Shown in pieces: positions 29,437-32,713 of a stretch of 44,121 nt of DNA. The position numbers and the translations under genes were made by a program. Below the pieces are notes generated by a model, which made no database searches, was not told the origin of the DNA, and was given only the letters and a program-made list of their open reading frames with translations. Source of the DNA: Bacteroidales bacterium (lineage in GTDB: Bacteria > Bacteroidota > Bacteroidia > Bacteroidales > UBA932); contig JAGCYX010000006.1 in NCBI GenBank assembly GCA_017960585.1, positions 1-44,121 of the forward strand, written 5' to 3'. Every line of letters begins with the position of its first letter. Positions within the stretch are counted from its first letter, which is position 1.

Positions 29437-30181
29437 TTCCTATCTCGACGATAAATTCGCGCAGGACTTCATGGTCGCCTGCTACCAGGTGGACCGCCGT
29501 GAGATCCTGCGCCCCTCCGCTTTCCTGGACCTGGCCCAGTACATGGCCGTTTACGGCGCCGATTGCCTGAACTTCGGCGACGAGCAGCTCCGCCCCTACG
29601 ACTGCACCTGGGTACTGGCTCGGCAGCACGTCCGCTTCGAGCGCCCGGTGATGCATAAGGAGCCCTGCAAGATCCTGACCTGGCATAAAGGTATGCAGGG
29701 GCTGTTCTTCATCCGTGACTATCAGCTGATCGGAGCAGACGGCATGCCGGCGGTCAATTCGACCAGTTCCTGGGTGGTGATGAACCTGACCGAGCGCCGC
29801 GTGGACCGGGCCGACTTCCTGACGGAGTTCACCTCCATGCCCCCGCAGAGCACGGACAACGCCATCGCCGAGACGGCCGGCAAGGTCGTTGCGCGCGGCT
29901 TGGAGTTTCACCTGATCGGCACGCACAAGGTGCAGTTCTCCGACGTGGATTACAACCAGCACGCCAACAATGTCAAATACACGGTCTGGGCGATGGACGC
30001 CCTGCCTGAAGTATTGGTTAACAACATGATGGTTAAGGATCTGACCATCAACTTCAACCGCGAGGCCCGCCCCGGCGAGACCGTGGAGCTGTGGCACGCG
30101 CTGGCGCCCGACGGCGCCCACATTGTCGAGGGGCGCGTCGAGGACCATCAAGTGTTTATCGAAAGGTTGCTTTTCGCTTAG
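29429..30181 (+). CDS. Acyl-ACP thioesterase
   Basis: This 250-residue double-hotdog enzyme of the FatA/FatB-like acyl-ACP thioesterase family releases fatty acids from acyl carrier protein. The N-terminal hotdog has the QVDRREILRPSAFLDLAQYMA segment and TWVLARQHVRFERP. The second hotdog carries the DVDYNQHANNVKYTVWAMDALP motif, with the Asn/His catalytic residues. The ATG at 29429 overlaps the Nif3-like gene by 8 nt. The stop codon TAG at 30179-30181 overlaps the stop of the convergent helicase gene. Confidence 0.92.
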   Translation: MTDSYLDDKFAQDFMVACYQVDRREILRPSAFLDLAQYMAVYGADCLNFGDEQLRPYDCTWVLARQHVRFERPVMHKEPCKILTWHKGMQGLFFIRDYQLIGADGMPAVNSTSSWVVMNLTERRVDRADFLTEFTSMPPQSTDNAIAETAGKVVARGLEFHLIGTHKVQFSDVDYNQHANNVKYTVWAMDALPEVLVNNMMVKDLTINFNREARPGETVELWHALAPDGAHIVEGRVEDHQVFIERLLFA

Positions 30182-32685
30182 TCGGCCGGCCTGATCTTAG
30201 CGTATTTCAGCAGCAGGAGCTTCTCGCCGTGGGCGTCGAAGCGGATCTTGGCTTTCATTTCGGGGGCGCGGCCGGAAAGTTCGAGGATGGTGCCGGGGCC
30301 GAAGCGGTTGTGTTCGATGCGCTGGCCTTCCCGCAGTTCCGTCATCGGTACCCCGACGAAGTTCGCGTCCGCCAATGCTGCATGGACGCCGGTCTTCGGT
30401 TGGCCAGCCAGCCCTCGAATGGGTTCGGGGCTGCGCCCCTCATCCCTCCCACTGACCTTTGCCCGGTTGCCCGCAAGCGGGCTTGCGGTCCCCCTGCCAA
30501 AGTTCAGCGGGCCCCTCCCGTTTACGAAGCCACGGGTGGCTACGCCCCTCGAGGGCTGCTGGCCAAACCGATTTTGACCGGCGTCCTTCTGTCCGGGGGC
30601 AACCTGGCTCTGTGCCGACGATCCTATGCCAAAGCGGTTCAGCCGGCCGCCGGTGAAGCGGGAGCCGAAGCCGCCCCATTCATGCGTGACGCCCGAATTA
30701 TCAAAATCCTCGGGGTCGAGCGGATTCTCGATGTAGCGCGGATCGATCTCCGCCAGGAAACGCGACGGCGCGTTGGACTCGTGCTTGCCGTTCCGCATCC
30801 GCGTCCCGGCGAACGACAGCCGCACCGCCTTCTTGGCCCGTGTCATCGCCACATAGAAGAGCCGCCGCTCCTCCTCCACCTCCGGCTTCGCGGACGGCAT
30901 CGTCACGCTCGGGAAGAGATTCTCCTCCATCCCGGCCACGAACACGTACGGGAACTCCAGACCCTTGGACGAGTGCGCCGTCATCAGCGCCACCTTGTTG
31001 TTCGTGTCCTCGTCGTCCGTCACGTCCACATTGCTCAGCAGAGAGACGTTCTCCAGGAAGTCATCCAGGGTGAAAACCCCCACCTCGCCGCCCTCGGCGG
31101 CATAATCCTCGGCTTCCTCCTCCCGCTCCTCGACGAACTGCGCCACGCTGTTGATGAGCTCGTCCAGGTTGGCCACGCGGGACAGGCCCTCGATGGACGT
31201 GTCCTGCTTGTAGAAGGCGTAGAGCGTGCTCTCGTCGGCGATCCGTTTTGCAAGTTCATAGGCGTCCGTCGTCGGGACCAGGGCCGACAGCTTCGCGATC
31301 ATCTCGCAGAAAGGCTGCACCTTGGGCACCTCGCGCGCGGCCTGGAAGAGCGGCCAGCCCTGCTGGCGTGCCACGGCCTCGATGGCCTCGAAGGCCTTGT
31401 CGCCGATGCCGCGCGCGGGCTTGTTGACCACCCGGCGGAAGGACTCGTCGTCGCGCGGGTTGACGACCAGCTTGAAGTAGGCCATCATATCCTTGACCTC
31501 TGCGCGGTCGAAGAAGGAATTGCCGGAATAGATCATATAGGGGATGTTGCGCCGGCGGAGCTGCTCCTCGATGGCGCGCGACTGCGCATTGGTCCGGTAC
31601 AGGACGGCGAAATCCTGGTACTGTGCCCGGGCCGTCCGCATCCGCTCCATGATCTCGGAAACGATCATGACCGCCTCCTCGCCCTCATTGTAGGCCTTCA
31701 GGAGGCGGATCGGCTCGCCGTCCTCGCCCACGGCGTAGCACTCCTTGGGGATGCGCCCCTCGTTGTGGGCGATCAGTGAGTTGGCCGCGTCCACGATGAC
31801 CTGCGTGGAGCGGTAGTTGCGCTCCAGGCGGAAGAGCTTGCACTCGGGGTAATCCTTCTTAAAACTCAGGATGTTCTCGATGCGCGCGCCGCGGAAAGCG
31901 TAGATGGACTGGGAATCGTCGCCTACCACGCAGATGTTGCGGTGGAACTGCGCCAGCTTCTTGAGAATCAGGTACTGCGCCTGGTTCGTGTCCTGGTACT
32001 CGTCCACGAGGATGTGCGAGAAGCGTCCGGCGATGGACTCCAGGGCCGCCCGGTTGTCCCGCAGCAGGAAGTTCATGTTCAACAGGATGTCGTCGAAGTC
32101 CATCACGCCGCTCTGCTTGAGCTTCTCCTGGTAGCGCTGATAGACCTCGCCCAGGCGCGGCCGCTTGCTGTGGTAGTCCTGGGTCTGGAGTTCCTGGCTG
32201 GCCCGGTAGGCCGAGACGGTGATGAGGTTGTTCTTCGCCATCGAGATGCGGGCCAGGACATCGCGCGGTTTATAGACTTTGTCGTCGAGTCCCATCTCCT
32301 TGAGACAGGCCTTGACGGCGCTCTGCGAATCGGAGGTGTCGTAGATGGTAAAGTTCTGCGGATAACCCAGCGAGTCGGCGTATTCCCGGAGGAAGCGGAC
32401 GAACACGGCGTGGAAGGTTCCCATGACCACGCGGCGCACGCTTCCGTCCCCCACCATCGCGGCGATCCGCTCCTTCATTTCGCCCGCCGCTTTCTTTGTA
32501 AAAGTCAGGGCCAGGATGCGCGCATCTGCCTGTAAAGCCAGAATATACGCCACCCGACTCGTCAAAACACGGGTTTTGCCGGACCCCGCTCCCGCCACGA
32601 TCAGCACCGGTCCGTCCACCTGGCAGACGGCTCTCTTCTGCTCCTCGTTCAAATCTTCCAGAATCGCATTCACTTTATCCATCAT
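30178..32685 (-). CDS. uvrD: UvrD/PcrA superfamily 1 DNA helicase with in-frame insert
   Basis: This 835-residue 3'-5' helicase unwinds DNA in repair and at stalled transcription or replication. Motifs: Q motif LNEEQKRAV (12-20), Walker A AGAGSGKT (31-38), VDEYQDTNQAQ (II), DDSQSIYAFRGA (III), LERNYRST (IV), TAHSSKGLEFPYVFV (V) and FYVAMTRAKK (VI). The C-terminal ~50 residues (LREGQRIEHNRFGPGTILELSG...) form the Tudor-like domain that binds RNA polymerase in PcrA. Residues about 700-768, in the linker before that domain, are encoded by a 203-bp palindromic element. The start is the ATG at 32685, 6 nt after a TATTTTCG box; the TTG at 32703 is rejected. Confidence 0.95.
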   Translation of the reverse strand: MMDKVNAILEDLNEEQKRAVCQVDGPVLIVAGAGSGKTRVLTSRVAYILALQADARILALTFTKKAAGEMKERIAAMVGDGSVRRVVMGTFHAVFVRFLREYADSLGYPQNFTIYDTSDSQSAVKACLKEMGLDDKVYKPRDVLARISMAKNNLITVSAYRASQELQTQDYHSKRPRLGEVYQRYQEKLKQSGVMDFDDILLNMNFLLRDNRAALESIAGRFSHILVDEYQDTNQAQYLILKKLAQFHRNICVVGDDSQSIYAFRGARIENILSFKKDYPECKLFRLERNYRSTQVIVDAANSLIAHNEGRIPKECYAVGEDGEPIRLLKAYNEGEEAVMIVSEIMERMRTARAQYQDFAVLYRTNAQSRAIEEQLRRRNIPYMIYSGNSFFDRAEVKDMMAYFKLVVNPRDDESFRRVVNKPARGIGDKAFEAIEAVARQQGWPLFQAAREVPKVQPFCEMIAKLSALVPTTDAYELAKRIADESTLYAFYKQDTSIEGLSRVANLDELINSVAQFVEEREEEAEDYAAEGGEVGVFTLDDFLENVSLLSNVDVTDDEDTNNKVALMTAHSSKGLEFPYVFVAGMEENLFPSVTMPSAKPEVEEERRLFYVAMTRAKKAVRLSFAGTRMRNGKHESNAPSRFLAEIDPRYIENPLDPEDFDNSGVTHEWGGFGSRFTGGRLNRFGIGSSAQSQVAPGQKDAGQNRFGQQPSRGVATRGFVNGRGPLNFGRGTASPLAGNRAKVSGRDEGRSPEPIRGLAGQPKTGVHAALADANFVGVPMTELREGQRIEHNRFGPGTILELSGRAPEMKAKIRFDAHGEKLLLLKYAKIRPAD
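30384..30586. mobile_element. MITE-like nested palindromic element inside uvrD
   Basis: The ends are imperfect inverted repeats: 30384-30418 and 30549-30586. The outer 11 bp are perfect (GGACGCCGGTC and GACCGGCGTCC), followed by matching TCGGTT, GGCCAGC and AGCCCTCGA blocks with small indels. Inside are three more hairpins: GGGGC/GCCCC (30427-30439), CCGCAAG/CTTGCGG near the centre (30471-30488) and AGCCAC/GTGGCT (30528-30541). It carries no transposase, stays open in the helicase frame and shows no obvious target-site duplication. The mobile origin is an inference. Confidence 0.6.
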
Positions 32686-32691
32686 AGCGGC

Positions 32692-32699
32692 ACGAAAAT
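32692..32699 (-). promoter_or_regulatory. -7-like box TATTTTCG of the helicase gene
   Basis: The minus strand reads TATTTTCG, one base from TAnnTTTG, 6 nt before the ATG at 32685. It is divergent from the nqrA promoter, 14 nt away. Confidence 0.45.
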
Positions 32700-32713
32700 A
32701 CAAAAAAAAGTGG

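Follow-up and report, generated by a model that had tools for sequence, protein, structure and literature searches.

Rickettsia palindromic elements (RPEs) are described as palindromes of about 100–150 bp that occur in many copies, in frame in unrelated genes, with a conserved peptide attributed to each RPE (PMC10969869). The REPs of the GTAG and CGTC super-families are reported near the 3' ends of genes and also inside genes, including uvrABCD, recBCD and that of DNA polymerase I, and some of them lie within longer palindromes (PMC3733652). Intragenic invertons have been reported in Bacteroidales (PMC12632263 and PMC11868660, citing Chanin et al. 2024). The mitochondrial genes of nematomorphs are reported to contain perfect inverted repeats and to stay open (PMC6649704).

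The element family presented here resembles RPEs, by description and not by sequence, as a many-copy palindrome that lies in frame in unrelated genes. It differs from them in that a site in ygiQ is read in both orientations and in more than one frame, with no one conserved peptide, and in that its arms vary from copy to copy and its core flips. REPs are likewise palindromic repeats in and near genes, but they are 20–40 bp single stem-loops with a fixed tag, whereas the present element has a three-hairpin core of ~75 bp and variable arms, and GTAG is its minority form. A MITE has conserved terminal inverted repeats; here, near-identical cores bear different arms, with the exception of two pairs that share them. 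As in an intragenic inverton, a segment between inverted repeats inverts inside a gene, but unlike the invertons as summarized in the citing papers, the flips described here are between species and involve no common recombination site. Homogenized arms, an inverted spacer and compensated changes are also reported for template switching in yeast genes and RNA genes (PMC8604942, PMC8794818); there they are described for resident short inverted repeats, whereas the arms here belong to a mobile element. The available text on nematomorph coding palindromes mentions no shared mobile core, which the present family has.

We regard as new the different self-complementary arms on near-identical cores, the co-changing arms, the inversion of the core, and the recurrently filled ygiQ site. 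The literature matches listed include no description of the family, and the coverage of that search leaves out most subscription papers, so that novelty is unproven. We assign a probability of roughly 0.58 to the explanation that the element is a non-autonomous, dispersed, selfish and translated RPE-like palindrome, whose arms form at the target site, whose cores flip through hairpin-driven template switching, and whose variants are filtered by selection.

Palindrome in the UvrD linker

The window, which is the whole 44,121-nucleotide stretch of Bacteroidales DNA that we analyzed, contains the palindrome inside an uvrD/pcrA gene. The features of the locus are listed below.

30178..32703, minus strand: uvrD/pcrA, host gene of the element; open reading frame of 841 codons (841 residues) with Pfam domains
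UvrD residues 18-286: UvrD-helicase domain (Pfam)
UvrD residues 292-631: UvrD_C domain (Pfam)
UvrD residues 793-837: PcrA_UvrD_tudor domain (Pfam)
30384..30586, minus strand: whole palindromic segment, both outer arms included; UvrD residues about 706-774
30402..30565, minus strand: match of covariance model R1 (core and inner arms); 73.9 bits, E 6.2e-13
30576..30586, minus strand: outer 5' arm, 11 bp, pairing perfectly with 30384-30394 (sequence)
30384..30394, minus strand: outer 3' arm (sequence)
30549..30571, minus strand: inner 5' arm (sequence)
30396..30418, minus strand: inner 3' arm, with one extra G relative to the 5' arm (sequence)
30517..30536, minus strand: hairpin H1 (CCCGT...ACGGG) (sequence); pair type co-varies in the family
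30448..30511, minus strand: hairpin H2, enlarged by a nested palindromic insert (sequence and fold)
30427..30439, minus strand: hairpin H3 (GGGGCTGCGCCCC) (sequence and fold)

An earlier note had described a 203-bp palindrome with inverted ends and a perfect outer 11 bp, three internal hairpins, and an in-frame position in uvrD, and the locus bears out all of this. The outer arms (30384-30394 and 30576-30586) have the sequences GGACGCCGGTC/GACCGGCGTCC, and the inner arms (30396-30418 and 30549-30571) are 23 nt long and 78% complementary when paired ungapped. The fold has a z-score of about -7.5: the energy for RNA is -129 kcal/mol (z -7.34) and that for DNA is -63.8 (z -7.62), with 0 of 200 dinucleotide shuffles as stable in either case. 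Hairpins H1–H3 are present, and the reading frame 30178-32703 is open on either side of the insertion. The ~69 residues encoded by the element belong to the UvrD linker, which joins the helicase domains (18–631) to the Tudor domain (793–837). Its placement ahead of the Tudor domain thus stands, with the residues shifted from the 700–768 given earlier to about 706–774. UvrD of genome G015, 87% identical over residues 1–700, has a shorter and different linker without the element. Compared with the orthologue in G008, the window copy has a longer hairpin H2, caused by the nested palindromic insert, and two compensated pair changes in the outer arm.

Core of the element and its copies

Searched with BLAST, the own genome has 18 places besides the window copy that match the segment (E<=0.001); these share the core, mostly 36–41 bp of it, and do not share the arms of the window copy. 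Eighteen copies were aligned, a structure was named for them, and a covariance model, R1, was made. The aligned copies have a variable outer stem, the 3' arm of which often contains one additional base, followed by three hairpins. Under the named structure, 84.5% of the cells in this alignment are paired, compared with 68.2% in shuffles and at most 51.7% when the structure is slid, and both-sided changes affect 113 cells, compared with 42 in shuffles.

With the R1 model, the own genome yields 25 copies (E<=0.1), one of which is the window copy. Thirteen of the 25 lie in open frames of Pfam-recognized genes, the products of which are DsbD, a SpoU methylase, RNase R (rnr), an FAD-dependent protein, a tyrosine recombinase, a PG_1098-like protein, two TldD/PmbA proteins, an RlmI-like methyltransferase, an aminotransferase, DNA polymerase I (polA), a YgiQ-like radical SAM protein, and UvrD. 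Open frames were sought first, so that split genes could be missed; neighboring open reading frames were scanned for the other 12 copies, and no gene was split over both flanks, several of the neighbors being without a Pfam match. The 13 open frames and the lack of a split gene favor translation of the element over its removal from the message. RNA removal and ribosome bypass were ruled out because the frames are kept.

The core edge is conserved across 178 copies. Arm positions more than 26 nt away from the core hold no more than 0.1 bit each, and positions -25 to -7 have a weak bias of up to about 0.6 bit, G-rich at -20 and -19. The third base of the GTAG tag is A in 26% and G in 74% of the copies, which makes GTAG the minority form at the core edge. 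The earlier note's comparison to a dispersed, RPE-like palindrome in frame is supported by the many copies in the own and related genomes. Its label "MITE-like" fails in the strict sense, because the arms hold no conserved terminal repeat across the 178 copies. It had also taken the lack of any other copy of the segment's arms as evidence against its proposal: the copy search found the core to be shared, and by this measure the arms would count against it.

Several copies have particular surroundings. Within the DNA polymerase I gene (L049), a second, partial copy seems to adjoin the first. In L030, the element is situated between convergent MgsA and LysM genes, with both stop codons (AAG TAG) inside the two arms. 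Several intergenic copies (L231, L234, L221 and relatives) start exactly at the stop codon of the upstream gene. Two different contigs of the own assembly (L037 and L038; G000 contigs C66 and C77) each carry an element upstream of tpiA. These two contigs suggest mixed strains or species in the bin, the contamination of which is 5.77%.

Distribution and a candidate transposase

Sixteen of the 19 genomes of the genus, the own genome included, contain R1 matches, and none was found in G002, G010 and G018 (E<=0.01). Within the family, matches at E<=1e-6 occur in 44 genomes out of 149 and in 11 of the 25 genera sampled, which rules out a genus-only distribution. Twelve genomes that represent 12 other families of the order gave 0 matches (E<=0.01). 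An exact pattern occurs in at least 120 stretches of a species-genome collection. The 80 matches listed are in metagenome-assembled genomes (MAGs) titled Bacteroidales, Bacteroidia or Bacteroidaceae; many of these come from rumen or gut samples, and two are Candidatus Cryptobacteroides. A viral collection contained 0 matches to the exact pattern, by exact matching only, and a phage origin was rejected on this count.

The distribution bears on the strongest alternative, a REP/RAYT-type mechanism in which a Y1 (HUH) tyrosine transposase recognizes the folded single-stranded core and inserts it. This alternative is partly compatible with the explanation we favor, as it could supply the insertion step. 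Y1_Tnp domains are present in 10 of 12 genomes of the genus, and the two without them (G002, G018) have 0 copies; in the family, Y1 genes occur in 36 of 44 copy-bearing genomes compared with 59 of 105 copy-free ones, a cross-count that ignores kinship. However, G010 has three Y1 matches and 0 copies, eight of the 44 copy-bearing genomes have no Y1 gene, none of the four Y1 loci read contains an R1 copy, and the GTAG tag is a minority form. Y1 genes were seen by eye near copies in G195, G234 and G000, with no count against chance. The transposase is weakly associated with the element, and we treat a RAYT-like origin as a tentative possibility.

Filled, empty and re-used sites

Searches with flanking sequences show the same site filled in one species and empty, filled in the opposite orientation, or occupied by a different palindrome in another. 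Sites that vary in this way are in rlmI, the aminotransferase gene, the PG_1098-like gene, tldD and the RNase R gene, and there are further ones; at L144 and L146, the site is occupied by a different palindrome. The uvrD gene is present in 59 of 61 genomes of the genus. Thirty loci of its linker yielded five strong R1 matches (L080, L081, L084, L090, and L092 by position), three of which run against the gene direction, and a weak one (L083, E 0.12); the linker of G059 has the element and that of G035 has none.

The ygiQ site is recurrently filled. Twenty-six loci were tried, five of which were unparsed (L155, L156, L319, L321, L325). Among the 21 species read, 16 have a filled site, with the frame kept in 15, and the other five have an empty site in frame. 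By reading of the sequences, ten of the filled copies run along the gene direction and six against it; the filled set includes two composites with a partial core (G158, G226). The single out-of-frame copy belongs to G136 and is located on a 4.2-kb contig.

Two other repeats were observed. A second, unrelated palindrome family (GCTTGCCGCCCTCGGCAAGGGAGAGGGGGGACCACGTCAGTGG...) occupies the aminotransferase and tldD sites of G070 (L144, L146) and recurs in L195:1004. A third repeat (GGCGCTCA..AGAGCGCCCGGCGGAGGCCG...) is joined to, or nested within, copies of the element, in ygiQ of G158 (L311) and G226 (L315) and in L329 (G243).

Origin of the arms

Six copies in G001 and nine in G141 have cores that are 96–100% identical, and the 20 nt outside their core edges have a mean identity of only 36% and 42%, respectively. 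By eye, each left arm pairs with its own right arm. Because these near-identical cores mostly bear different, self-complementary arms, most of each arm looks made at the site and not carried with the core. Inner arms sometimes travel, since two paralogue pairs have them in common: L386/L390, at 85% over 20 nt, and L034/L040 from the own genome, at 20/20; the strict form of the idea, that every copy has its own arms, is contradicted by these pairs.

Reciprocal searches between G001 and G141 identified three empty alleles (L438, L440, L470) that lack the arms. The longest perfect inverted repeat at their junctions is 4–5 bp, not above shuffles, and L470 contains a perfect 15-bp terminator-like palindrome some distance from the junction. 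Compared for exact insertion ends and a target site duplication, filled and empty alleles are highly diverged at the junction. In L074, the outer right arm matches host sequence that adjoins the L471 palindrome, and the left arm repeats this sequence in inverted form; L234, compared with L284/L286, looks like the same case of a host-derived outer arm. L471 (G141:C54:49200-49850) itself is a core-less palindrome with ~30 bp arms and a 24-nt loop, at a place where G001 has the element.

The arms could instead be hairpins of the host, present before the core entered their loop. Of the 11 core-less ygiQ sites that were parsed, seven have a hairpin in the top 7% of local windows, and the single parsed rlmI site has a hairpin as well; five of 16 ygiQ and 13 of 15 rlmI loci were unanchored in this test, and the remaining two rlmI loci both represent one G070 site. 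TTTGACCGGCCGGTCAAA is present at the aminotransferase site of G008, which is empty, and the palindrome of L471 also agrees with this alternative. Against it, the three empty alleles have no matching palindrome, and core-less hairpins may be leftovers of core loss. Perfect palindromes with arms of at least 20 bp number 20 with a core and only three without in 612 kb of loci that had been picked for holding the core (N runs uncounted). We consider entry into pre-existing hairpins improbable, and favor arms that arise mostly at the site.

Concerted change of the arms

From 204 element entries, we assembled 26 orthologous pairs, leaving out L368 because of wrong coordinates. Counted over 25 of the 26 pairs, 613 paired arm positions are unchanged, 56 changed on one side, 28 on both sides to a complementary pair, and 11 on both sides to a non-complementary one. 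The corresponding numbers in a stricter set of 15 of the 26 pairs, with arms at least 85% alike, are 385, 9, 11 and 2; its 13 both-sided changes compare with 0.75 expected if the arms were independent. Changes are fully compensated in L058/L354 (3/3) and L060/L358 (2/2). The arms change at a rate of 4.3% per arm, lower than the roughly 10% of the flanks. Cores are at least 97% identical in nine of 16 orthologous pairs, with flanks at 87–95%, which could reflect function or gene conversion. Given these cores, selection on pairing may be an alternative source of arm complementarity.

The strong covariation, the conserved cores and the several copies that start at a stop codon would fit a functional structured RNA or DNA signal, the pairing of which is kept by selection. 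This is unlikely in view of the two orientations at one site, which make the transcript differ, and of the gain and loss of sites in unrelated genes. No match exceeded the Rfam gathering score of its family in the eight loci scanned, which gave seven weak matches, and a known RNA family was ruled out on this basis.

Inversion of the core

The core is inverted between its arms in eight of 19 pairs in which both flanks are at least 85% identical; two of the eight share L191. In L413/L433, 140 nt align inverted with 138 identities, and the flanks align directly. The pairs L377/L389 and L404/L430 and the ygiQ pair L075/L373 are inverted in the same way, and in ygiQ of G005/G050 the segment is inverted inside the gene. 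All flips were seen between species only. Inversion leaves the frame open in seven of 13 own genes, compared with a fraction of 0.52 for control segments. We therefore rejected flip-compatible frames as a designed switch; a flip that keeps the frame no more often than controls looks like an accident filtered by selection. The open frames per copy, 3.25 of 6 compared with 2.65 in shuffles, are in small excess (123 copies).

The inversions might be assembly errors at inverted repeats, since the genomes compared are all assemblies seen without reads and the element is about as long as one short read. The perfect arm stretches at the breakpoints are only about 20–24 nt, however, and the final k-mers usual in assembly are longer than that. 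Such errors would also leave co-varying arms, kept frames, and identical cores with different arms unexplained, which makes this very unlikely. Least probable is a programmed intragenic inverton, with a site-specific recombinase that flips the core within a population and switches protein variants: cores do lie inverted and in frame between conserved arms, and within-gene inversions are reported in Bacteroidales (cited in PMC12632263), but the arms of 178 copies have no common recombination site, flipped frames are open no more often than in controls, and the hosts are housekeeping genes.

Proposed mechanism

In the explanation we favor, a dispersed selfish palindrome with site-formed arms, the mobile unit would be a core of ~75 bp with edges RAAACC/GGTTTY and three hairpins. 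Near-identical cores at unrelated sites and presence or absence between species indicate that the core is copied to new sites; these include linkers and loops of conserved proteins, where the kept frames point to translation. The arms would mostly arise at the site as an inverted repeat, as suggested by identical cores with different arms and by the three empty alleles that lack a matching palindrome. We hypothesize that the hairpin disturbs replication and that the polymerase switches template between the arms, which lengthens them into host sequence. The same switching would copy changes from arm to arm and invert the core between them. We propose template switching because arm homogenization and spacer inversion match its described signature, both being given as outcomes of template switching between inverted repeats (PMC8604942, PMC8794818). 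Gene-breaking versions would be removed by selection, and a benefit to UvrD would be unnecessary. It is conceivable, if doubtful, that the transposable unit is barely more than a folded core, which builds its 20–40 bp inverted ends from target sequence by hairpin-driven copying.

Implications

In-frame palindromes in genes were previously described chiefly as Rickettsia RPEs and small REPs. The family described here extends them to Bacteroidales common in gut and rumen and to genes such as polA, rnr and uvrD, and its sites, found filled, flipped or empty across many species, form a natural series. With this series it can be tested whether a drifting stem keeps its complementarity through arm-to-arm copying or through selection, and by what route short selfish palindromes come to lengthen proteins. 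The family is also a warning against taking strong covariation of a stem in an alignment as proof of a functional RNA. If little more than the core is mobile and it builds its ends at each site, the element would remain capable of turnover within genes without loss of the host's reading frame.
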